This document shows, in pieces, positions 5,724 through 59,014 of a stretch of DNA of 64,000 nt. The DNA is from Thermaerobacter sp. FW80 (lineage in GTDB: Bacteria; Bacillota; Sulfobacillia; Thermaerobacterales; Thermaerobacteraceae), in assembly GCF_004634385.1 (NCBI RefSeq), contig NZ_CP037895.1:1463245-1527244 (forward strand), written 5' to 3'. A program made the position numbers and the translations under genes. Every line of letters starts with the position of its first letter. The stretch's first letter is position 1. Under the pieces are notes generated by a model. It did not search any database. It saw nothing but the letters and a program-made list of their open reading frames with translations, and had not been told where the DNA came from.

Positions 5724-6509
5724 TCAGCGACCCCGGAACACCGGCCGCCGCCGCTCGAGGAAGGACCGCATGCCCTCGCGGCGGTCGTCGGTGGGGACGC
5801 AGGCGGCGTAGAGTTCCAGTTCGCGGCGGCGGCCCTCCTCCCATCCCAGGGAACGGCTGGCGCGGACGGCCTGCTTGACTTGCCGCACGGCGATGGGGGC
5901 GTTGGCGGCGATCACGGCGGCCAGCTCGAGGGCGCGCGTCACCACGCGCTCCGGCTCGGTGACCTCGGTGACCAGCCCGATGCGCCGGGCGGTCTCGACG
6001 TCGATGATCTCGCCGGTCATGATCAGCCGGTTGGCCCACGCCTCGCCCACCACCCGCGGCAGGATCTGGGTGGCGCCACCGCCGGGCATGATGCCCCGGG
6101 TGACCTCCGGCAGCCCGAACCGCGCGTCGGCCGCCGCCACGATGAAGTCGCAATTCAGCGCGATCTCGAAGCCGCCCGCCAGGCAATAGCCCCGCACCGC
6201 CGCGATCACCGGCACGGGAGTCTCCGCCACCGCTCGGAACATGCGCTGGAAGACGTGGTGCTGGGCGAACCAGGCCTGTTCGTCCAGCGTGGCCCGCTCC
6301 TTCAGGTCGGCACCGGTGCAGAAGGCCCGCTCGCCGGCGCCGCAGAGCACCACCGCCCTGAGGTCGGTGCGCCGGTGCAGGTCCTCGAAGCAGGCGGCGA
6401 GCCCCTGCGCCATGGCGGTGTCGAAGGCGTTCATCCGCTCGGGCCGGTTGAGTCGCACCAGGGCCACGTCGCGCTGGGGCCACTCCAGCTGGACATGGGT
6501 GCCCTCCAC
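5724..6509 (-). CDS. Enoyl-CoA hydratase/isomerase family protein
   Basis: 261 residues, normal length for a single-domain crotonase. Oxyanion-hole segments CTGADLKER and VRGYCLAGGFEIALNCD and the LPEVTRGIMPGGGATQILPR segment with the conserved Glu are all present. Such enzymes hydrate enoyl-CoA in fatty acid or branched-chain acyl-CoA degradation. The GTG at 6509 is chosen because GGATGGAGGTG precedes it and residues upstream are low complexity. It is convergent with the livF remnant, perhaps the rest of a branched-chain catabolic locus. Exact substrate unknown. Confidence 0.88.
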   Translation of the reverse strand: MEGTHVQLEWPQRDVALVRLNRPERMNAFDTAMAQGLAACFEDLHRRTDLRAVVLCGAGERAFCTGADLKERATLDEQAWFAQHHVFQRMFRAVAETPVPVIAAVRGYCLAGGFEIALNCDFIVAAADARFGLPEVTRGIMPGGGATQILPRVVGEAWANRLIMTGEIIDVETARRIGLVTEVTEPERVVTRALELAAVIAANAPIAVRQVKQAVRASRSLGWEEGRRRELELYAACVPTDDRREGMRSFLERRRPVFRGR

Positions 6510-6891
6510 GACGGTCCACCTCCATCCCACCCGGTCTGCCCAAGGCGGATCGGATCCCGGGGACCTGGCCCCGGCGGCGACCGGCCCGCGGGGCCGGTCG
6601 CCGCCCCTCCGGGGTCGAGGCGTCTGGATGAGGACGGGGCGAGACGGCTCCCGACGGAAGAGGAGTTCCATGGCCGGAAGGGCCGCCCCTGCCGGGCGGC
6701 CCGCCACTCCCGGCGCTGCGAAACCGCCCATCCGCGGCGCGTGCGACCGCGCGGGTCGCCACGCCCCGTCTCCCCGCAGGGGCGGTGCGCAGGGGCCGGG
6801 TTCGTCCCGTTCGCCGGTTCCGCCGGATCGGCCCGCTCGGACGTCGTCCTGCGCGGGCGTGGCGCCGCTCGTCGGCGCCGGGAGCGCCGGT
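6510..6891. other. Intergenic stretch without a gene; contains a 9-bp GC hairpin
   Basis: No credible gene seen. GGGCCGCCC (6680-6688) and GGGCGGCCC (6694-6702) form a perfect stem with a CTGCC loop, about 190 bases past the femX-like stop, a possible end of that minus-strand transcript. A near copy of the dispersed motif (CCGGGTTCGTCC) lies at about 6797. Confidence 0.5.
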
Positions 6892-7995
6892 CTACTCGGC
6901 GTCGGCCGGCGATGGGGCGGCGCGCCGGCGCCGCAGGAGCCGCAGCAGGCGGCGACGGGCCGCGAAGGCGCCGCGGAAGGCCCAGTAGCGCAGGGGCGCG
7001 AACACCCGCTCGAACTCGCCCACGTACTCGACCAGCTCGGCGCCGAAGCCCTTCTTGAAGCGATACAGCCCGTAGTGGGGATCGGCCGGGTCGAGGTTGC
7101 CGGACACGCCGCGGAAGTCGTAGATCCGGCATCCCTCGGCGATGGCCCAGCGGATCGCCGCCCACTGGGCCGCGTGGCTGGGCATCACCTTGCGGGCCGC
7201 GTAGTCGGTGCCACCGTAGAGGTACCAGACGACGTCGCCACAGCGGAACACCATGACCCCCGCCACCGGCCGACCCTGGTATTCCGCGAGGAAGACGCGC
7301 CCGTGGCCGGGCGCGATCAGATGGCGCCAGAGGGCCTCGTAGTAGGAGAAGGCCCGGATGGCGAAGCGCTGCCGGGCGGCGGTGAGCTGGAGCAGGCGGT
7401 AGAAGGCGGCCAGGTCCTGCTCGCTGGCGGCCGCCCGGGTGGTGACGCCGTGGCGCGCGGCGTAGCGGATGTTGTACCGCGTCTTCGCCTCGAAGCGGGC
7501 CAGGGTCTCCTCGGGGGTCGGGGCCAGCGGGAGGCGCATGACGAACCGCGGTTGCAGGCCCTCGAAGGCCGTGGCCTCCGTCCCGCGGCGAAAGCTCAGC
7601 CGGTCCAGCAGCGCGATGGCGTCCCGGTGCTGGACGGGGATGTCGGGGTCGATGCGCAACATCACCGCCCGGCGGCGCCGGGCCTCGTCCGCCGCCGCCG
7701 CGAGCAGCGCCTCCACCACGGCGCGGTGGCGATAGTCCACCGCCGGGCCCGTCGGCGCGTAGAACACCGCGCCCAGGCCGGGCAGGCGACGGCAGAGGAC
7801 CGTCAGGGCGCCCCGGATGGCCGAGCCGTCGCGGGCGAGGAAGCGCAGGGGCTCCCACCCGGTGGTCCGCTTCACCTCGCCCCAGCCCCACAGCTGCATG
7901 AAGTGGGGCTTGCCGCAAGCGGCCACGGCGCGGTCGTAGGCCTCGCGGTCCGGCTCCCGGGCCGGCTCCACGTGCAGCGAGCGGGGCCGGTTCAT
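6892..7995 (-). CDS. FemAB/FemX-like peptidyltransferase (GNAT fold)
   Basis: 367 residues. Matches the peptidoglycan bridge-forming family: N-terminal FMQLWGWGEVKRTTGW, the PTGPAVDY segment, KTRYNIRYAARHGV in the middle and the second acyltransferase half with YLYGGTDYAARKVMPSHAAQW and the conserved YDFRGV...GLYRFKKGFG end. Family members transfer amino acids from aminoacyl-tRNA to lipid II or related acceptors in the cytoplasm. The ATG at 7995 overlaps the alr stop by four bases (ATGA), so it is coupled to the alanine racemase, consistent with a cell-wall role. The amino acid transferred cannot be read from sequence. Confidence 0.87.
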   Translation of the reverse strand: MNRPRSLHVEPAREPDREAYDRAVAACGKPHFMQLWGWGEVKRTTGWEPLRFLARDGSAIRGALTVLCRRLPGLGAVFYAPTGPAVDYRHRAVVEALLAAAADEARRRRAVMLRIDPDIPVQHRDAIALLDRLSFRRGTEATAFEGLQPRFVMRLPLAPTPEETLARFEAKTRYNIRYAARHGVTTRAAASEQDLAAFYRLLQLTAARQRFAIRAFSYYEALWRHLIAPGHGRVFLAEYQGRPVAGVMVFRCGDVVWYLYGGTDYAARKVMPSHAAQWAAIRWAIAEGCRIYDFRGVSGNLDPADPHYGLYRFKKGFGAELVEYVGEFERVFAPLRYWAFRGAFAARRRLLRLLRRRRAAPSPADAE

Positions 7996-49143: not shown

Positions 49144-50427
49144 CTACGGCCAGCGGGAGCGCGGCTGGGGTGGGGCAGCGGCGGCCGGGCGCGCGGCGTC
49201 CTGGGGGAGCCGGGGCGGCGAGGGTGCGGTGCCGCCGGGTGGGGGCGACGCCGTATCGGTGGCCGGCGCCGGCCGCTCCGCGGGGTAGACGGGAGCCCGG
49301 CGTCCCACCGCGACCACCAGGGCTACCGCGACCGCGGCGAGCACCGTGACCCCGTCGACCCGTTCGCCCAGGGCGGCGTGGGCGACGAAGAGGGTCAGGA
49401 AGGGCTGCAGCAGCTGCAACTGGCTGGTCCGCGCCACCCCGGCCAGGGCCATGGCGTGGTACCAGAGGATGAAGGCGCCGAACTGGGTCACGACGCTGAT
49501 GTAGAGCCAGGCCAGCCAGGCCCGCACCGCCGGGTCCCACCCTGGCCGGGCGGCTGCCGTCGCCGCAGCGGCGGAGAGGGGTGGGGACCCCATCGGCGCC
49601 GGCCCGGAGGAAGGGGGTCCCGGGACGGACGGGGCCGCAGGCCCGGCGATGATCGCCCCCCAGGTCGCGGCAAGGGTGAGCGGCAGGGCGGCCCACAGCC
49701 CCCATGCGATGGGGAGGAACCCGCCATGACGCCGCGCCAGGCGGCCGCCCTCCGCGTGCCCGGCGGCGGCCAGCACGACGGCCGCCAGCATCAGGAAGTC
49801 GGCGGCGTGGGGGCGACCGGCCCCCTGGCGCACGGCGAATCCCACCACCACGCCGCTTCCCACCATCGCCGCCAACCAGAACCGGGCCGAGGGCCGCTCC
49901 CCCGCCCGCAACGCGGCGAGTCCCGATGTCAACAGGGGCAGCAGTCCCAGGAGCACCGCCCCGTGGGCTGCCGGGAGCTGGGTCAGCGCCAGCGTCGAGA
50001 GCCAGGGGAAGGCGACGGTGGTGCCGGCGGCCACCACGAGGACCGAGGGCCATGCGGTCGGGGGAGGCAGCCAGCGGGCCATCGTGCGGACGGCGGGGCG
50101 TCCCCGGGGGGATCCGGGCGCGGCGGCGCGGCCGCGGACCGTGAGGGCCGCGAGGGCCGCGGCCAGGGCCGCGCCCGCCGACCGGCCGGGGCCCACCAGC
50201 TCGCCGGGGAGGTGCTCCAGGGCCACCCGGGTGGCGGGGAGGGTGAGGCTGAAGAGCGCGACGGCCAGCAGCCCCAGGGCGGCGCCCGCGGCCTCGCGGG
50301 CGCCGCCCTGGCGATGGGGCCTGGGCTCCCGTCGACGATCCCGCCGCGGGGCGGCATGGATGGCACCGGCACCAGGAGCCGGCACCGCGCGGTCGCGGTT
50401 CCGACGGCGGCAACGCGGCGAACGCAA
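49144..50427 (-). CDS. EamA/DMT-superfamily transporter
   Basis: About 427 residues with ten predicted helices in two EamA repeats: GLLAVALFSLTLPATRVALEHLPGELVG opens the first, AAHGAVLLGLLPLLTSGLAAL closes it, and the second ends with TSQLQLLQPFLTLFVAHAALGERV. Exports or imports small metabolites, substrate unknown. The start is uncertain: TTG at 50427 has GGGGAAGGA about 10 bases upstream and sits a normal distance from a TAGACT -10 (50476-50471); the ATG at 50457 has no ribosome site. A 50-residue Arg-rich lead and low-complexity inserts and tail surround the helices. Confidence 0.83.
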   Translation of the reverse strand: MRSPRCRRRNRDRAVPAPGAGAIHAAPRRDRRREPRPHRQGGAREAAGAALGLLAVALFSLTLPATRVALEHLPGELVGPGRSAGAALAAALAALTVRGRAAAPGSPRGRPAVRTMARWLPPPTAWPSVLVVAAGTTVAFPWLSTLALTQLPAAHGAVLLGLLPLLTSGLAALRAGERPSARFWLAAMVGSGVVVGFAVRQGAGRPHAADFLMLAAVVLAAAGHAEGGRLARRHGGFLPIAWGLWAALPLTLAATWGAIIAGPAAPSVPGPPSSGPAPMGSPPLSAAAATAAARPGWDPAVRAWLAWLYISVVTQFGAFILWYHAMALAGVARTSQLQLLQPFLTLFVAHAALGERVDGVTVLAAVAVALVVAVGRRAPVYPAERPAPATDTASPPPGGTAPSPPRLPQDAARPAAAAPPQPRSRWP

Positions 50428-50535
50428 GGGGTCCCCGTCCTTCCCCGGGTCCGGCATCGGCCGCGGTCCCAGTCTACGCCGGGACCGAGGGGAGCGTTCG
50501 CGCCGGGCCGACGTCCCGGGGCGTCGCTGCGCTGC

Positions 50536-51948
50536 TCACCCCAGGGCCCGCAGGTCTCGCACGACCCCATCCAGGGCCCGGGCGGCGGAGGGGTCGAGGG
50601 CGTCCAGGGCGCGCGCCTCGACGGCCATGGCACTGAGGTACAGGCGCGGTCGCTGGGCTTGTCGGGCGCGGCAGCGGGCGATGCGCGCCAGCACCAGCGC
50701 CCGGCGGTGGCGTCCCGCGGCCAGCTCAAGGTTGGCCAGGTCCACCAGCACGCTGGCCACGCCGTCGAGGCGGCCGATGCGGCGATACCGCGCCAGGCAC
50801 TGCCGGAGGCGCTGCCGACCCAGCCTCCACGCCCCCTGGCGCGCCTGGACGACGCCGAGATCGTGGGTGGCCGTCAGCACGCGCGCGGGGTCCCGGCCCC
50901 GGTACAGCTGGATGGCCCGCTCGAGATGGTAGGCGGCCAGGTCCAGCTGGTTGAGGGCGCAGTAGCAGACGCCCACCCCATGGTGGCAGGCGGCGATCAG
51001 CGTGCGGGGCAGGTGGCGGACCGGCACCGGCACGGGCGCGGGGGCGGATGCCCTCGCCGGCGGGACCCCGCCGGCGCCAGCCTGCCCGGGTGCCGCCGGG
51101 ACCCCGGCCGGTTCCGGGGCCGGTTCCGAGCGGGAACGCGCGTTCCCGGGCGTCGGGGCTGCGGCCGGCTCCACCAGGGACCCCCGGGCGTCTCCGGGCG
51201 TTGCGGACGCGGCCGCCTCCGTACGGGAACCCTGGGCATGCCCGCGACCCGATGGCGGGGCCGCGCGCGGCGGCCGCTCGCGGTCCGGCAACCCGGTGGC
51301 GTAGTACGCCAGGGCCTCCCGGTAGTGCCCCTGGCGGAACAGGGTGCTGGCCAGGGCGACGTGGGCCCGGATGCGGTCGGCGGGGCGGCTCGCGGCCGAC
51401 GCGGCCAGGCGGAACGCCTCCGCCGCGACGGCCAGTTCGTCCCGCTGGAAGGCCAGCTTGCCGCGGGTGTAGTGGAGGCGGAAGGTGGTCCCCGGCGGGC
51501 AGCGATCCAGGGGGACGCGGGCCAGGAGGTTGAGGGCGGCGAAAAGGCACCGGCCGGCCTCGTCCGCCTGGTTGAGACAGGCCAGGGCGTAGGCCAGGTC
51601 GACCTGGACCGAGAGCAGGAGGGGCGAGTCCTCGTCCTGCTCCAGCAGTTCCAGGGCCATGCGGAAGGCCCGCACCGCCTCCCCGAAACGCCGCTGACGG
51701 GTGTAGCGGCGTCCCCGCTGGACGTAGTCATGGATCACGCGGCGGCGGGCGAACTCGTCCTGCTCGCCCAGGAAGAAGCCCACGGGTTTGCCGAGGCGCT
51801 CGGCCAGGAGGCGCAGCGTCGCCAGGGGCGGGACGACCTCGTTGGCCTCGATGCGGCTGATGTAGGAGCGGTCGAAGAGCCCGGCCGCCAGCTGCTCCTG
51901 GGTCAGGCCCAGTTCCCGGCGCCGGGCCCGGATGCGGTCGCCGATCAC
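50536..51948 (-). CDS. XRE-type HTH regulator with TPR domain (candidate peptide receptor)
   Basis: 470 residues. Residues 2-60 are a lambda-repressor-type HTH (RIRARRRELGLTQEQLAAGLFDRSYISRIEANEVVPPLATLRLLAERL). The rest is a chain of TPR-like helical pairs (about 75-220 and 313-465; for example HVALASTLFRQGHYREALAYYATGL and HHGVGVCYCALNQLDLAAYHLERAIQLY). This is the plan of RNPP regulators (PlcR, NprR, Rgg/ComR), whose TPR groove binds short secreted peptides. A 90-residue Ala/Pro-rich insert (223-312) splits the TPR region. GTG at 51948 follows GAAGGGAGGG. It is divergent from the repeat-peptide gene at 52101, the natural candidate ligand; that pairing is inference. Confidence 0.88.
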   Translation of the reverse strand: MIGDRIRARRRELGLTQEQLAAGLFDRSYISRIEANEVVPPLATLRLLAERLGKPVGFFLGEQDEFARRRVIHDYVQRGRRYTRQRRFGEAVRAFRMALELLEQDEDSPLLLSVQVDLAYALACLNQADEAGRCLFAALNLLARVPLDRCPPGTTFRLHYTRGKLAFQRDELAVAAEAFRLAASAASRPADRIRAHVALASTLFRQGHYREALAYYATGLPDRERPPRAAPPSGRGHAQGSRTEAAASATPGDARGSLVEPAAAPTPGNARSRSEPAPEPAGVPAAPGQAGAGGVPPARASAPAPVPVPVRHLPRTLIAACHHGVGVCYCALNQLDLAAYHLERAIQLYRGRDPARVLTATHDLGVVQARQGAWRLGRQRLRQCLARYRRIGRLDGVASVLVDLANLELAAGRHRRALVLARIARCRARQAQRPRLYLSAMAVEARALDALDPSAARALDGVVRDLRALG

Positions 51949-52042
51949 GGGCCGGCCCTCCCTTCGCTCGGCGCGGTGGTCCCCCGGGGCGCTGGTGCGC
52001 GGCTTCCAGGTCACCCGGGTGCACGACCGGCACGCCGTGTTC

Positions 52043-52073
52043 CTATCGCCCGGGTCCACGATGGACTTGCCAA
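52043..52073 (-). promoter_or_regulatory. Possible promoter of the HTH-TPR regulator gene
   Basis: Minus-strand TTGGCA (52073-52068) and CGATAG (52048-52043) with a 19-base spacer, within the 152-base divergent region. No convincing promoter is seen toward the peptide gene. Confidence 0.3.
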
Positions 52074-52100
52074 CGCCCATCGCCCGCGGGAGGTGAGGAC

Positions 52101-52388
52101 GTGTTGAGGGTTCGTTGGACGGTCGGCGCAACCCTGTTGGTGGCGCTGACGTGGGCGATCCTCGCGGGGGGTGGAGGTGGGGTGGCAGCAGCCGACGCCG
52201 CTGAGGGCATCCATGCCGACCTGATGGGTCCGGAGATCCCGGAGCTGTCGACCGTGGCGGACCTGATGGGTCCGGAGATCCCGGAGCTGACGGTGCTCGC
52301 GGACCTGATGGGGCCGGAGATCCCCGAGCTGTCGGTCCTCGCGGACCTGATGGGCCCCGGCGTCCCGGAGCTTGACGTGGAGGCCTGA
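52101..52388 (+). CDS. Secreted four-repeat peptide precursor
   Basis: 95 residues. MLRVRW and a hydrophobic helix (TVGATLLVALTWAILAGG) form a signal peptide, with AAADAA as a likely cleavage region. The remaining protein is four 14-residue units at 39-52, 53-66, 67-80 and 81-94: core ADLMGPEIPEL followed by three variable residues; the last unit has GVPEL. Codon third positions differ among units while amino acids are kept, so the peptide seems to be selected. No enzyme or binding domain is present. GTG at 52101 has GGGAGGTGAGG just upstream. It diverges from an XRE-TPR regulator gene. The best reading is a multicopy exported peptide signal; a small repetitive surface protein is the alternative. 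Confidence 0.8.
   Translation: MLRVRWTVGATLLVALTWAILAGGGGGVAAADAAEGIHADLMGPEIPELSTVADLMGPEIPELTVLADLMGPEIPELSVLADLMGPGVPELDVEA
52215..52382 (+). repeat. Four 42-bp in-frame repeats inside the peptide precursor gene
   Basis: Units start at 52215, 52257, 52299 and 52341. Units 1-3 differ mainly at synonymous sites (GGT/GGG, CCC/CCG choices); unit 4 has more changes. Confidence 0.95.
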
Positions 52389-53144: not shown

Positions 53145-54029
53145 GTGTTCCTGCGCATCGACCGCTTGGCCGTGGAGTTGCCGCGACCGAAGGAGGCGGA
53201 CCCGAACGCCGCCGCGGCGGTGCAGGAGCTGCTGGGCGGGCGCTTCGGCGAGATGTCGACGCTGATGAACTACACCTACCAGTCCTTCAACTTCCGCGGG
53301 CGGGAGAAGCTGCGGCCCTACTACGACCTGCTGGTCAACATCGCCACGGAGGAGCTGGGGCACATCGAGCTGGTGGCGGCGACCATCAACCTGCTGCTGG
53401 AGGGGAGCACGCGGCCGGGTGCGCCGGAGACGGCGCCGCTGGCGGTGGCGAAGGACCTGCGCAACACCCACCACTTCATCGCCACGGGACAGGCGGCGCT
53501 GGTGGGCAACTCCATGGGCGCGCCCTGGAGCGGCGACTACGTGTTCTCCAGCGGTAACCTGGTGCTGGACCTCTTGCACAACTTCTTCCTGGAGTGCGGG
53601 GCGCGGCTGCAGAAGATCCGGGTCTACGAGATGACGACGAACCCGGTGGCGCGGGAGATGATCGGCTATCTGCTGGTGCGGGGCGGCGTGCACGTGCTGG
53701 CGTACGCGCGGGCGCTGGAGACGCTGACGGGGGTCGAGGTGGCGCGGATGCTGCCGATCCCGGACATCGACAACAGCAAGTTCCCCGAGGCGCGCAAGTT
53801 CGAGGCGATGGGGATCCACCGCAAGCTGTACCGGCTGAGCCCGGACGACTTCCGCGAGGTGGCGCGGATCTGGAAGGGGACGGCACCGGACGGCGGGCAG
53901 CTGGAGGTGGTGGACGGCGCGCCGGAGGGCGGGCCCGTGCCCGAGCTGGCGGAGGTTCCGGAGAGCTTCGTGCCCGGTATCGACCCCGGGGAGCTGCAGG
54001 AGCTGGCGCGGAAGCTGGCCAGCGCCTGA
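53145..54029 (+). CDS. Manganese catalase
   Basis: 294 residues, normal for the non-heme dimanganese catalases. Metal ligands fit the Thermus enzyme in order and spacing: Glu36 (RFGEMSTLMNY), Glu70 and His73 (ATEELGHIE), Glu150 (FFLECGARLQ) and His183 (RGGVHVLAYARALE). Degrades hydrogen peroxide in the cytoplasm. The C-terminal 45 residues form an acidic tail after the RIWKGTAPDGG end of the core. GTG at 53145 follows GGGAGGGAGAGAGC. Unlike most neighbours it has no low-complexity insert. Confidence 0.95.
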   Translation: MFLRIDRLAVELPRPKEADPNAAAAVQELLGGRFGEMSTLMNYTYQSFNFRGREKLRPYYDLLVNIATEELGHIELVAATINLLLEGSTRPGAPETAPLAVAKDLRNTHHFIATGQAALVGNSMGAPWSGDYVFSSGNLVLDLLHNFFLECGARLQKIRVYEMTTNPVAREMIGYLLVRGGVHVLAYARALETLTGVEVARMLPIPDIDNSKFPEARKFEAMGIHRKLYRLSPDDFREVARIWKGTAPDGGQLEVVDGAPEGGPVPELAEVPESFVPGIDPGELQELARKLASA

Positions 54030-54523: not shown

Positions 54524-54757
54524 ATGGCGGACGAACGCGGCAACGCCCACGAGGCACCCCGGGGTGCCGGCGAGGACGAGTCCTTGGGTGGGCAGGCCGG
54601 TGCGGCGGCCTGGGATGCGGTCCAGGCGCAGCTTCACGAGATGGTCGACCTGGCTCGGGACCTGGAACGGCACCTGGAGGGGCTCCACGGTGCGCGGGCC
54701 CACCGGCTGCGCCGGCTCGCCGAAGAGGTGGTCGAGCGGCTTCGGCCCGGCCCGTGA
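54524..54757 (+). CDS. Small helical (coiled-coil-like) protein, 77 residues
   Basis: ATG at 54524 follows AGGAGGAGGG with good spacing. After a 25-residue acidic start, residues 28-73 form one long amphipathic helix (WDAVQAQLHEMVDLARDLERHLEGLHGARAHRLRRLAEEVVERL). No known family recognised. Convergent with the Zur-type regulator gene. Confidence 0.6.
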   Translation: MADERGNAHEAPRGAGEDESLGGQAGAAAWDAVQAQLHEMVDLARDLERHLEGLHGARAHRLRRLAEEVVERLRPGP

Positions 54758-54871: not shown

Positions 54872-55303
54872 TCAGCCGGCCGGCTGGCAGCGGCTGCAAT
54901 AGCCGTAGACCTCGAAGGCGTGTCCCACCACGCGGAACCCGGGGTCCTGGGTCGGGACGGCGTGCAGGGTGGCCGTCGGGCACCACTCGACGCAGAAGGA
55001 CTGCCCGCAGGCGACGCAGACGAAGTGGTGGTGGTGGCGGTCATCCCCCTGGTACTCGAAGCGGGTCCCGTCCCGGCCTTGCAGGTTGACGGGGCTGATC
55101 AGCCCGCAGTGCGTGAGGAGGGTCAGGTTGCGGTAGACCGTGTCCAGGCTGACCCTGGGATGACGGGCCCGCACCGCGTCGGTCACCTCCCGGGCGGTGA
55201 CGGGCCGACCCGCCCGCATCACCGCCCGGAGGATCTCTAGGCGCTGCGGGGTGACCTTCAGCCCCCGTTCCTTCAACCGCTGGACCGCCCGCTGGAAGTT
55301 CAC
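54872..55303 (-). CDS. Fur-family metal regulator, probably Zur
   Basis: 143 residues, normal Fur length. Winged helix with KVTPQRLEILRAVMRAGRPVTAREV and HPRVSLDTVYRNLTLLTHCGLI, metal site HHHHFVCVACGQ, and structural zinc Cys pairs CVAC and CSRC. GTG at 55303 has GGAGGTC 10 bases upstream. It is divergent from znuCBA, and both promoters carry the same palindromic site, so it most likely represses zinc uptake (Zur) and itself. Iron or peroxide sensing cannot be excluded by sequence alone. Confidence 0.88.
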   Translation of the reverse strand: MNFQRAVQRLKERGLKVTPQRLEILRAVMRAGRPVTAREVTDAVRARHPRVSLDTVYRNLTLLTHCGLISPVNLQGRDGTRFEYQGDDRHHHHFVCVACGQSFCVEWCPTATLHAVPTQDPGFRVVGHAFEVYGYCSRCQPAG

Positions 55304-55374
55304 CGTGCCCCGACCTCCACAGCCGCCGACCCGGTGGGGCGGGAGTCGGCGTCCCGCTGGACCCGGGTTGGAAA

Positions 55375-55388
55375 TCGGAATATTCCGA
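55375..55388. promoter_or_regulatory. Zur-type box 1
   Basis: Perfect palindrome TCGGAATATTCCGA, flanked by AAA/AAT, close to the Firmicute Zur consensus (AATCGTAATNATTACGATT). It lies in the 5' leader of the regulator gene, about 70 bases before its start. Confidence 0.8.
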
Positions 55389-55437
55389 AATGGCTCGCTG
55401 CCGGTCGTCCCCGTTTCGTCGTCCCCTCGTCACCTCC

Positions 55438-55466
55438 AATCTAGCGGTGACGGCCTCCGGTGTCAA
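55438..55466 (-). promoter_or_regulatory. Promoter of the Zur-type regulator
   Basis: Minus-strand TTGACA (55466-55461) and TAGATT (55443-55438) with a 17-base spacer. Box 1 would lie about 45-60 bases downstream of the start point. Confidence 0.75.
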
Positions 55467-55551
55467 AGATTGCGCCCAGGCCAGGGCGAGCCATCGGGTC
55501 CGTCGGCCGCGGACCCGGTGTCCACCGGCGCCCGCGGGGTGGCCTGCTCCC

Positions 55552-55581
55552 TTGACAGGCCGGGGTGTTGGCCGCTATTAC
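55552..55581 (+). promoter_or_regulatory. Promoter of znuCBA
   Basis: TTGACA (55552-55557) and TATTAC (55576-55581) with an 18-base spacer, immediately before Zur box 2. Confidence 0.75.
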
Positions 55582-55585
55582 TAGT

Positions 55586-55599
55586 TCGGAATATTCCGA
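55586..55599. promoter_or_regulatory. Zur-type box 2
   Basis: A second perfect copy of TCGGAATATTCCGA, 4 bases after the -10 of the znuCBA promoter, covering the transcription start. Binding here would block the transporter operon. Confidence 0.85.
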
Positions 55600-55634
55600 T
55601 TCCACATCGCGAGTCGGAGGCGGAGGCCCGAGCC

Positions 55635-56549
55635 ATGGCGTCCAGCCTGGGTCATGCCCGACGCGACCGCGGCGAGCCTGGACCCGCGCCGGACGAACCG
55701 GTCCACGGTGCGGGCGCGCCTGCGGGCGACCGGGGCGCCGAGCGGCACGCCGGCAGCGGGGGTCGACGCGCCCCGGCGGGCGAGCCAGGGGGGGCCACCC
55801 GTCCCGGTTCGAGCGGCCCCGCCGTGGTCGAGCTCGAGGACGTCGCCTTCGCCCACGGTGCCGACCCGGTGCTGGACGGCGTCTCCCTGACGGTGCGACG
55901 CGGCGAGTTCCTCGGGCTGGTGGGTCCCAACGGCTCGGGCAAGACCACGCTCCTCCGCGTCCTCCTCGGTCTCCTCGCGCCCACCCGCGGCCGGGTGCGC
56001 CTCTTCGGCCAGGACGTGCGAGCCTTTCGCCAGTGGTGGCGCGTGGGCTACGTCCCCCAGCGACCGGCTGCCCTGGCCGGTGGGTTTCCCGCCACGGTGG
56101 AGGAGGTGGTGGCCACGGGGCTCGTGGCCATCGGCCGCGCGTCCGCCGCGGCGCGACCGCGGTCGCCGCGGGAGGCCCTGGCCCTGGTCGGCATGGAGCA
56201 CCTGGCGGGGCGTCCCATCGGCCGCCTCTCGGGCGGCCAGCAGCAACGGGTCTTCCTGGCCCGGGCGCTGGTCGGCCGGCCGGAGCTCCTGGTGCTGGAC
56301 GAACCGCTGGAGGGCGTCGATGCCGCCACACAGGACCGCTTCTACCGGTTGCTGCGGGAGCTGCGGGAACGCGACGGTCTGACGGTGATCCTGGTCTCCC
56401 ACGACGTCGGCGTCGTCAGCGCCGAGGTGACCACCCTGGCGTGCCTGAACCGGCGCCTGTTCTTCCACGGGCCCCCCGAGCGGTTGGCGCCGGGGACCAT
56501 GGCCGAGCTCTACGGGTTCCCGGTGACCACCGTGCGTCACCGGCACTGA
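55635..56549 (+). CDS. znuC: Zinc ABC transporter ATPase
   Basis: 304 residues. After about 65 low-complexity residues (with a reverse CCGGTTCGTCC copy at 55691) comes an ABC ATPase: Walker A GPNGSGKTT, Q-loop YVPQR, signature LSGGQQQRVFLARAL, Walker B LLVLDEPLEGVD and switch SHDVGVV. The YVPQR and CLNRRLFFHGPP segments are typical of the metal-uptake (ZnuC/MntB) group. ATG at 55635 follows GGAGGCGGAGG. First gene under the Zur-controlled promoter; znuB and znuA follow on the same strand. Confidence 0.93.
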   Translation: MASSLGHARRDRGEPGPAPDEPVHGAGAPAGDRGAERHAGSGGRRAPAGEPGGATRPGSSGPAVVELEDVAFAHGADPVLDGVSLTVRRGEFLGLVGPNGSGKTTLLRVLLGLLAPTRGRVRLFGQDVRAFRQWWRVGYVPQRPAALAGGFPATVEEVVATGLVAIGRASAAARPRSPREALALVGMEHLAGRPIGRLSGGQQQRVFLARALVGRPELLVLDEPLEGVDAATQDRFYRLLRELRERDGLTVILVSHDVGVVSAEVTTLACLNRRLFFHGPPERLAPGTMAELYGFPVTTVRHRH

Positions 56550-56862
56550 TGGCTCGACCCGCCCGAGGGGGAATGGGTGACCGGCGGCAGCGCGGCGGCG
56601 TCCGCTGTCTGGACCGGTGGCGAGCCGAGGTGGCGGTCGGTGACTCCCTCTGTCGCCGGCAGCCGGTGGGCGGCGCGGCGCCGGCATGCGCCCCGCGGCC
56701 CCGATGGCGGAGGGCGTCCTCGGCTGCCGGCAGCCCTGCTGGCGGCGGGGCACTCCTGCCGTCGTGCCGGTGGGGGCGTCGGACGACCGATTCCTGCCCG
56801 GGCCGGCGGGAGGAGGGCCAGCGGCGGAGCGCGGGCGGGCGTCGGCGGAGGGAGGACGGGCG
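56550..56862. other. Spacer between znuC and znuB, no gene
   Basis: 313 bases of GC-rich low-complexity sequence. No terminator or gene seen; the operon probably reads through. Confidence 0.4.
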
Positions 56863-57690
56863 ATGGCCGGCGTGAAGGAGCTGTTCCAGTACGACTTCAT
56901 GGTTCGCGCCCTGATGGCCGGCACGCTGGTGGCGCTGCTGGCGCCGGTGGTGGGGACCTTCCTGGTGCTGCGACGCCTGTCCCTCATGGGGGACGCGCTG
57001 GCCCACGTCGCCCTGGCCGGACTGGCCGGGGGGCTCTGGCTCGGGGTGTACCCCACCGGTACGGCCCTCGGACTGGCCGTGGCGGCGGGTGCGGCCATGG
57101 AGGCGCTGCGGGCCCGCTACCGCCGGCATGGCGAGCTGGCGGTGGCCATCACGCTGGCGGCGTCCGTCGCCCTGGCGGCCGTGTTCTTCAGCCTCGGGGG
57201 GACGGGCGGGATCGACCTCTTCGCGTACCTCTTTGGCAGCGTGCTCACCGTCAGCCCGGCGGACGCGACGCTGATCGCCGGCTTGACGCTGGCGGTGCTG
57301 GGGGTGGTCGCGGTGCTCTACCGCGACCTGCTGGCCCTCACCCTGGACGAGGAGCTGGCTCGCGTCACCGGCCTGCCGGTGGGGGCCCTCAACGGCCTCT
57401 TCACGATGATGGCGGCCGCCGCCGTGGCGGCCAGCATGCGGGTCGTGGGGGTGCTGCTGGTCTCGTCGCTCATGGTGCTGCCCGTGGCGGCCAGCCTGCA
57501 GGTCGCCCGCAGCTTCCGGGCCGCCCTGGGCCTGTCCGTCCTGTTCGGCCAGCTGGCGGTGGGGGCGGGGCTGGTGGTGGCATACTGGCTGAACCTGCCG
57601 CCGGGCGCCACGGTGGTGCTGGCGGCTGTGGTGCTGCTTTTGGGCGCCCTGGCGGCGCGCCGGCTCTGGCCCGATCTGGGGCCGGCCTGA
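56863..57690 (+). CDS. znuB: Zinc ABC transporter permease
   Basis: 275 residues with about eight membrane helices. FLVLRRLSLMGDALAHVALAGLAGG, GTGGIDLFAYLFGSVLTVSPAD, and VGVLLVSSLMVLPVAASLQVARSF are hallmark segments of the ZnuB/MntC permease family. ATG at 56863 follows GGAGGACGGGCG. Works with ZnuC and the ZnuA lipoprotein. Confidence 0.94.
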   Translation: MAGVKELFQYDFMVRALMAGTLVALLAPVVGTFLVLRRLSLMGDALAHVALAGLAGGLWLGVYPTGTALGLAVAAGAAMEALRARYRRHGELAVAITLAASVALAAVFFSLGGTGGIDLFAYLFGSVLTVSPADATLIAGLTLAVLGVVAVLYRDLLALTLDEELARVTGLPVGALNGLFTMMAAAAVAASMRVVGVLLVSSLMVLPVAASLQVARSFRAALGLSVLFGQLAVGAGLVVAYWLNLPPGATVVLAAVVLLLGALAARRLWPDLGPA

Positions 57691-57901
57691 GGGGAGGAGC
57701 CGCGGCAGCCCGGGCGCGGCACCCGCGGTGGACGCAGGCGAGGAGCCGGGTCCAACGCCGGCAGGGGTCCGGGCGAGCGCCCGGCCCGAGAGCCGCGGCC
57801 GGCCCAGGCGGCAGCCCGGGCGCGGCGCCCGCTGAGCACACGGGACGGCGCGGCCCCGATGCCCGCGGTGGGCTCAGGAAAGGCAAGAGGGAGGGGACGG
57901 C

Positions 57902-59014
57902 ATGCCGCTGCCGATGCCGGATGTGGTTGCGCGGGGCGAATCCCGCCGCCGACGGGGGCGGCGGGGATGGGGGCGGTGGGTCGGCGGGCTGCTGGTCGCC
58001 CTCATCATGGCGCTGGCCGCGCTGGCCGCCGGTTGCGGGCCCCGGGGCGGGGGTGACGGCCCGGCCGCCCCGGGGCGTGCGGGTTCGTCGGAGGAACGGG
58101 CGCGCCTGCCGGTGGTGGTGACCTTCTACCCCCTGGAGTACATGGCGCGGTCCATCGGCGGCGACCGGGTGGCGGTGACCGCCCTGATCCCGCCCGGCGC
58201 CGACGCCCACCACTGGGAGCCGCGCCCGGCCGACGTGCGGGCCGTGGCGGAGGCGCGGGTCTTCATCTACAACGGCGCGGGGCTGGAGCCGTGGGTCCCG
58301 CGGCTGCTGAAGGCCGCGGGCCGCTCGGGGCGGATCGACGTCGAGGCGGCAGCCGGCCTGCCCTTGGTCCCCGCAGGCACCGCCACGCGGGTCCTGGGAG
58401 CGGGGGGCGGATCCGCCGGCGCCCCGGCCGACCGGGACGGTCACGGGCATGGGGACCACGGGCACGCCGAGGGGAGCGCCGCCGACACCCCACCGGATCC
58501 CCATGTGTGGCTGGATCCCGCGTTGGCCGCCCGCCAGGTGCGCACCATCGCCGACGCCCTGGGGCGGGCCGATCCCCCGGGACGCGCCGTCTACCTGCGG
58601 CGCGGTGAGGCGCTCGCCCGCCGGCTGGAGGAGCTGGCTGCCGAATACCGGCAGCTGGCCCGCTGCCCGCGGCGGGAGCTGGTGGTCAGCCATGCCTTCC
58701 TGACCTATCCGGCCCACCGCTACGGGCTCGTCCAGATCCCGATCGAGGGCTTCGCGGAAGAGCGGGAGCCGGGCCCGCGGCAACTGGCGGCGGTGGCCGC
58801 GTTCGTCCGGGAACGGGGCCTGCCCTACATCGTGGTCGAACCCGGCGCCGCCGGGGCGGCCGCGACGCTGGCCCGGGAGACCGGGGCGCGGCTGCTCGAG
58901 GTCCATCCCCTCGAGACGCTGACCGCGGCCGATCGCCAGGCGGGGCGGGACTACCTGTCCTTGCTGGAGCAGAACCTGGACCGGCTGCGGCTCGCGTTGG
59001 GCTGTGGCGGCTAG
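57902..59014 (+). CDS. znuA: Zinc-binding lipoprotein of the ABC transporter
   Basis: 370 residues. An Arg-rich start, signal helix and lipobox LAAGC (Cys at about 45) anchor it outside. The cluster A-I binding fold follows with PGADAHHWEPRPADVRAV (His ligand), a His/Asp-rich loop (DGHGHGDHGHAEG) typical of ZnuA, DPHVWLDP (second His), VVSHAFLTYPAHRYGL (third) and GxYLSLLEQNLDRLR at the end. The loop and the Zur operator favour zinc over manganese. ATG at 57902 follows GGGAGGGGACGGC. The spacer 57691-57901 contains two copies of a GGCAGCCCGGGCGCGGC segment and no gene. Confidence 0.93.
   Translation: MPLPMPDVVARGESRRRRGRRGWGRWVGGLLVALIMALAALAAGCGPRGGGDGPAAPGRAGSSEERARLPVVVTFYPLEYMARSIGGDRVAVTALIPPGADAHHWEPRPADVRAVAEARVFIYNGAGLEPWVPRLLKAAGRSGRIDVEAAAGLPLVPAGTATRVLGAGGGSAGAPADRDGHGHGDHGHAEGSAADTPPDPHVWLDPALAARQVRTIADALGRADPPGRAVYLRRGEALARRLEELAAEYRQLARCPRRELVVSHAFLTYPAHRYGLVQIPIEGFAEEREPGPRQLAAVAAFVRERGLPYIVVEPGAAGAAATLARETGARLLEVHPLETLTAADRQAGRDYLSLLEQNLDRLRLALGCGG

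Follow-up and report, generated by a model that had tools for sequence, protein, structure and literature searches.

Introduction

Peptide signalling systems of the RRNPP group have been described in Bacillus, Streptococcus, Enterococcus, Paenibacillaceae and Clostridium (PMC10075063). In these systems a receptor with TPR repeats recognizes a pheromone, and an Asn residue that hydrogen-bonds the pheromone backbone is strictly conserved in RNPP proteins (Asn227 in RapF; PMC3601957). In Rap3T the corresponding residue is N226, which anchors the main chain of the pheromone (PMC11343458). Propeptides that contain several identical or near-identical pheromones occur with Rap, NprR, PlcR and AimR receptors and may harbor up to six to eight copies (PMC9765709, PMC11343458). 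Repeats are present in 17 of 17 large propeptides of the NprX type (Table 3 of PMC9765709). The Phr3T and Phr105 propeptides of Bacillus phages each carry two copies of the pheromone, both of which are processed and show activity, and in duplicated Phr pheromones the copies are conserved and the remainder of the propeptide is not (PMC11343458). The open reading frame of Phr3T reads RRGHTA..SRGHTS.

In the Rgg/SHP and PrgX/PrgQ systems the peptide genes are divergent. Their peptides are short, hydrophobic and non-repeated and depend on PptAB (PMC9765709, PMC10075063).

Here we analyze a divergent pair of genes in a stretch of 64,000 nucleotides from Thermaerobacter sp. FW80, referred to as the window, to which all positions refer unless another locus is given. 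NCBI places the genus Thermaerobacter in Clostridia incertae sedis. A literature search gave no description of RRNPP or PlcR systems in Thermaerobacter, and the publications that pair this genus with quorum sensing concern other topics, judging by their titles. According to an earlier note on this DNA, no system with this repeat is known to be described in high-GC thermophilic Firmicutes. Tandem pheromone copies as such are known (PMC9765709, PMC11343458).

Gene pair and repeats

The propeptide gene (52101..52388, + strand) encodes 95 amino acids and starts with GTG at position 52101, preceded by a strong Shine-Dalgarno sequence, GGGAGGTGA (52088..52096, + strand). Start codon and Shine-Dalgarno sequence are both kept in the orthologs, as is the divergent position in the four genomes that possess the gene. 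According to a hydropathy and charge scan, residues 1-33 (52101..52199, + strand) contain two Arg, a hydrophobic core and several AXA-type sites, as putative cleavage sites, up to ADA33. A charged n-region, a hydrophobic core and AXA-type sites were found by the same scan in all four precursors. The leader resembles a signal peptide and may direct secretion by the Sec pathway.

The remainder of the protein is built from four units starting at residues 39, 53, 67 and 81, a spacing of exactly 14. Units 1 (ADLMGPEIPELSTV, 52215..52256), 2 (ADLMGPEIPELTVL, 52257..52298), 3 (ADLMGPEIPELSVL, 52299..52340) and 4 (ADLMGPGVPELDVE, 52341..52382), all on the + strand, read ADLMGPEIPEL-STV, ADLMGPEIPEL-TVL, ADLMGPEIPEL-SVL and ADLMGPGVPEL-DVE, respectively. 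The GPGV core of the last unit resembles the units in the other genomes. The cores of units 2-4 are identical to that of unit 1 at 31 of 33 positions, and among 5000 residue shuffles the highest value was 13. Within the 11-codon core, units 1-3 differ by silent changes only, three in number (GCC/GCG, GGT/GGG, CCG/CCC). Taken alone these silent changes are modest evidence, and the comparison of sister species given below is stronger. The shuffles and the conservation across genomes rule out a chance open reading frame or a repeat artefact. What had been noted earlier about this gene was borne out by sequence and shuffles: the coordinates, the 95-residue length, the signal peptide-like start, and four 14-residue units of which the first three keep their amino acids while changing silent codon positions.

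Divergently oriented, at a distance of 152 bp, lies the gene for an XRE-HTH/TPR regulator of 470 amino acids, a putative peptide receptor (50536..51948, − strand, GTG start at 51948). The dimensions of the pair agree with those used by RRNPP_detector, which expects receptors of 250-500 aa with TPRs of the peptide-binding type and, immediately next to the receptor gene, a gene for a propeptide of 10-100 aa (PMC10075063). RRNPP_detector further looks for propeptides that are secreted by Sec or are of the SHP type (PMC10075063).

Predicted structure of the regulator

Pfam searches with the regulator returned HTH_3 (E 9.5e-12) and TPR_12 (E 6e-16), with TPR_12/TPR_2/TPR_1 above cut-off. AF2 models were obtained for the window regulator (pLDDT 84) and for the ortholog from a compost metagenome-assembled genome of another genus (ZC4RG37, here G004; pLDDT 93.2). 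Both models combine an HTH domain with an uninterrupted TPR superhelix, which in G004 comprises 16 helices or about 8 TPR-like pairs. These results support the earlier description of an XRE-HTH protein with a TPR-like remainder facing the peptide gene across 152 bases. They also conform to the architecture of RNPP receptors, in which an effector domain is followed by 5-9 TPRs arranged as a right-handed superhelix (PMC9765709). The TPR domain contains an insert of ca. 65-80 residues, absent from the earlier note, which is proline-rich and predicted to be disordered. In the window regulator it appears in the model and the alignment as a variable linker of low confidence (residues 234-299; 51052..51249, − strand). 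It is shorter in the two further Thermaerobacter genomes that carry the pair (G001 and G003) and absent from G004. Orthologs are 385 and 435 aa long.

Structural alignment over ca. 300 TPR residues gave Z scores of 24-25.6 with NprR, NprR-NprX, Rap-CSF, Rap3T-pheromone and RapF-PhrF. The top structural match was the eukaryotic TPR protein LGN, with a Z score of 28-30. Since LGN outscores the pheromone receptors, the fold match is not specific, and the fold alone is no proof of pheromone binding. In profile comparison PlcR aligned across the HTH and TPR regions together (E 8e-17).

The position of the Rap/RNPP pheromone-anchoring Asn (PMC11343458, PMC3601957) is occupied in the alignments by Asp363, encoded at 50860..50862 (− strand). 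Comparison of a 14-sequence profile with phi3T Rap by hhalign (P 95.6, E 1.3e-8) placed Y225-N226 of Rap3T opposite H362-D363. In this column Asp occurs in all four orthologs and Asn in 12 of 12 aligned relatives outside the family. No other Asn of the TPR domain is conserved among the four orthologs. The His preceding this Asp is invariant. The regulator thus lacks the conserved Asn of RNPP receptors. Because the anchor site is recognizable but altered, we refrain from classing the regulator among the standard RNPP receptors. The RNPP receptor plan proposed in the earlier note is supported, with the qualification that the anchoring residue is Asp. On present evidence the regulator works like an RNPP receptor, and we infer that it binds the peptide.

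Set against the described systems, the pair resembles NprR/NprX of the Bacillus cereus group in that a receptor with an HTH and multiple TPRs adjoins a gene for a small peptide that is exported, in Thermaerobacter putatively, and the TPR domain superposes on that of NprR with a Z score of about 24 over 303-312 residues. In contrast to NprR/NprX, the Thermaerobacter pair has a divergently oriented peptide gene, Asp in place of the anchoring Asn, and a peptide whose sequence is unrelated to NprX. PlcR/PapR shares the XRE-HTH and TPR composition (Foldseek E 1e-6 for the G004 model), but PlcR has 5 TPRs (PMC3601957) in a shorter, 293-residue chain, compared to about 8 helix pairs in the regulator described here. 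The TPR fold also matches Rap3T (Z about 24.8), whereas Rap has a 3-helix bundle in place of the HTH (PMC3601957) and Asn226 as anchor in place of Asp363. The regulators of Rgg/SHP and PrgX/PrgQ are likewise HTH-TPR-like; unlike the peptides of those systems, the Thermaerobacter peptide is repeated and acidic and has a Sec-like leader.

Distribution and sequence conservation

A search of 154 genomes of the class for regulator orthologs (E <= 1e-40) gave only four, in the window genome (G000), G001, G003 and G004. A divergent small repeat ORF is found in the same place beside all four, in two genera. The four genomes represent three independent lineages only, the regulator genes of G001 and G003 differing at 35 of 1308 nt (2.7%). 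The propeptides of G001, G003 and G004 are 83-84 aa long and contain two units each, compared to four in G000, with AD[L/W]MGP as common core. The units are ADLMGPGIPDMW and ADLMGPGVPDMW in G001 and G003, and ADWMGPGVLDW and ADWMGPGVLD in G004 (translation read from the sequence).

Comparison of the G001 and G003 propeptide genes revealed 16 nucleotide differences in codons 1-53, covering leader and spacer; 10 amino acids are changed there and 2 codons differ silently. Across codons 54-84, the part encoding both units, there is one silent change (Fisher p 0.007 vs leader/spacer). With at least two copies that are more conserved than the rest of the protein, the gene has the properties expected of a multicopy propeptide, and its pattern is like that of the duplicated Phr pheromones (PMC11343458). 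Missing conservation of the repeats in homologs had been set beforehand as grounds for abandoning the signal peptide reading; the repeats turned out to be the conserved part of the propeptide.

A search of 398 genomes of the phylum, a sample to which G004 does not belong, with a gapped DNA pattern for tandem MGP..D-x-MGP matched the three Thermaerobacter pairs only. Scanning contig sequences with the single protein gave no match, and scanning them with the alignment recovered the G004 record together with distant XRE proteins. Matches in a plasmid collection were restricted to the HTH, and those in PHROGs to HTH/TPR alone.

Traces of loss were found at two sites. In T. marianensis (G002), of the same genus, the interval between the EamA and Fur genes contains two regulator fragments (157 bp at 71% and 46 bp at 91%; L119:6853-7071), and the peptide gene was not found in this interval. 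Genome G003 possesses, besides the intact pair elsewhere, a second divergent region with peptide gene at ca. 82% identity, in which stops have appeared and the repeats are gone (L120:8270-8808; G003:C1 about 2492269-2492807). This copy, located directly upstream of a Mn catalase gene, looks like the product of transfer or duplication followed by decay. The losses in T. marianensis and the decayed copy in G003 indicate that the two genes are retained or lost together. Joint loss, and the peptide gene beside each of the four orthologous regulators, support the earlier proposal of a signal/receptor pair.

Genomic context

In the aligned intergenic region the best conserved symmetry centre is a putative operator dyad, CACCCGGGTG (52012..52021; TCACGCCCGTGA in G001, G003 and G004). 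A second putative dyad, CACGCCGTG (52031..52039), has the same spacing from the first in the orthologs. In no single sequence were intergenic palindromes significant against shuffles, and we rejected them as operators on their own strength; an operator is therefore only suggested, by conservation of position. The sequence TCACGNNCGTGA occurs 2-4 times per genome; G001, G003 and G004 have a copy at the pair, G000 does not. With a motif this rare, no regulon was found. Consensus searches gave no sigma-70 promoters or terminators. The divergent promoter is probably autoregulated by the pair.

Downstream of the regulator gene and on the same strand lies a gene for an EamA/DMT transporter (49144..50457, − strand), which adjoins the pair in all four genomes that have it and is still found in T. 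marianensis, where the pair is missing. The EamA gene next to the G003 pair appears frameshifted, with two overlapping frames and a stop in each match (L040 about 6453-7500). Downstream of the propeptide gene a small protein of 77 aa, predicted to be helical, is encoded (54524..54757, + strand). The protein is restricted to the three pair-bearing Thermaerobacter genomes, the G004 contig ending short of the site, and gave no Pfam match at E 0.001. A role as output of the system is speculative. The Mn catalase gene (53145-54029, + strand) was rejected as a member since it adjoins the pair only in G000. Its distribution in the genus is patchy: it is absent from G001 and G002, and the G003 copy, by the decayed region, is 97% identical to that of the window. 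Further along, at 54872-59014, a Fur-family regulator gene is divergent from a metal ABC transporter set (ATPase, permease and binding protein). This locus, likely of the Zur/ZnuABC type, is syntenic in G001, G002 and G003.

Peptide import is possible, given that the genome contains genes for seven SBP_bac_5 (OppA-type) proteins. Such proteins are common, hence their presence is no proof of import.

Discussion

The regulator and the propeptide form a real, conserved pair, probably with an RRNPP-like signalling function. We consider it likely that they constitute a one-component quorum-sensing pair of this kind with a multicopy propeptide; its secretion, processing, import and binding, the direction of regulation and the output are the parts that we infer. 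The propeptide would be exported by the Sec pathway via its N-terminal signal peptide, and extracellular proteases would cut the short hydrophobic linkers (..V/L before AD, and after EL). Cleavage would yield four acidic, almost identical peptides, each about 7-11 residues long, with the core (A)DLMGP(E/G)(I/V)P(E). After re-import by an oligopeptide permease these may bind in the concave groove of the TPR superhelix and alter how the HTH dimer acts on the two conserved dyads within the promoter that both genes share. The outcome would be density-dependent autoregulation of propeptide and regulator, possibly together with the small protein encoded downstream and the EamA transporter.

The repeat protein could instead be a secreted effector, such as a multicopy antimicrobial or bioactive peptide, whose gene is controlled by the regulator without the peptide being sensed. 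Small exported proteins with repeats, encoded next to a regulator, would also fit a bacteriocin-like locus, and unit positions 7-11 differ among relatives, as might occur in an arms race. However, genes for immunity, modification or dedicated export do not accompany the pair across genomes, and the neighbours that are conserved encode the EamA transporter and, in three genomes, the small helical protein. Moreover, what is conserved is a short core, and the TPR architecture of the regulator is that of pheromone receptors. We regard an effector function as unlikely.

Even less probable is a feedback loop within one cell, in which the N-terminal helix serves as a membrane anchor and the unprocessed precursor, or an adaptor-like protein, is bound intracellularly. 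A point in its favour is that in G001 and G003 the repeats start about 20-25 residues past the last plausible AXA site, so that processing is putative. Yet three diverged N-termini maintain the plan of charged, hydrophobic and small residues, and the linkers between units vary while the cores are kept, as expected if the units are released. That an unrelated secreted repeat protein and an ordinary XRE-TPR regulator are incidental neighbours is very improbable, for although XRE-TPR regulators are common in the class and the distant ones have no adjoining repeat ORF, the divergent pair is kept at all four orthologous loci in two genera and both genes are gone in T. marianensis.

For the RRNPP-like quorum-sensing pair, the multicopy design is not new in itself; new are the presence of such a pair in this lineage and the altered anchor residue. 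One could go further and place the regulators in a peptide-signalling subfamily of their own, limited to Thermaerobacteraceae, in which Asp after an invariant His replaces the RNPP Asn anchor, suggesting a changed mode of peptide recognition, and in which the pheromone is acidic, contains Pro and occurs in 2 to 4 copies depending on the species. This extension is tentative, and we do not at present lean toward it.

If the signalling function is correct, RRNPP-like peptide communication would exist in a lineage of extreme thermophiles, with a very clean multicopy propeptide. Four orthologs, one species in which both genes were lost and the change of Asn to Asp provide a compact set for studying the co-evolution of pheromone and receptor, and the same set suits the question whether the copy number of a propeptide tunes the signal. 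The thermostable receptors may also be suitable for structural work.
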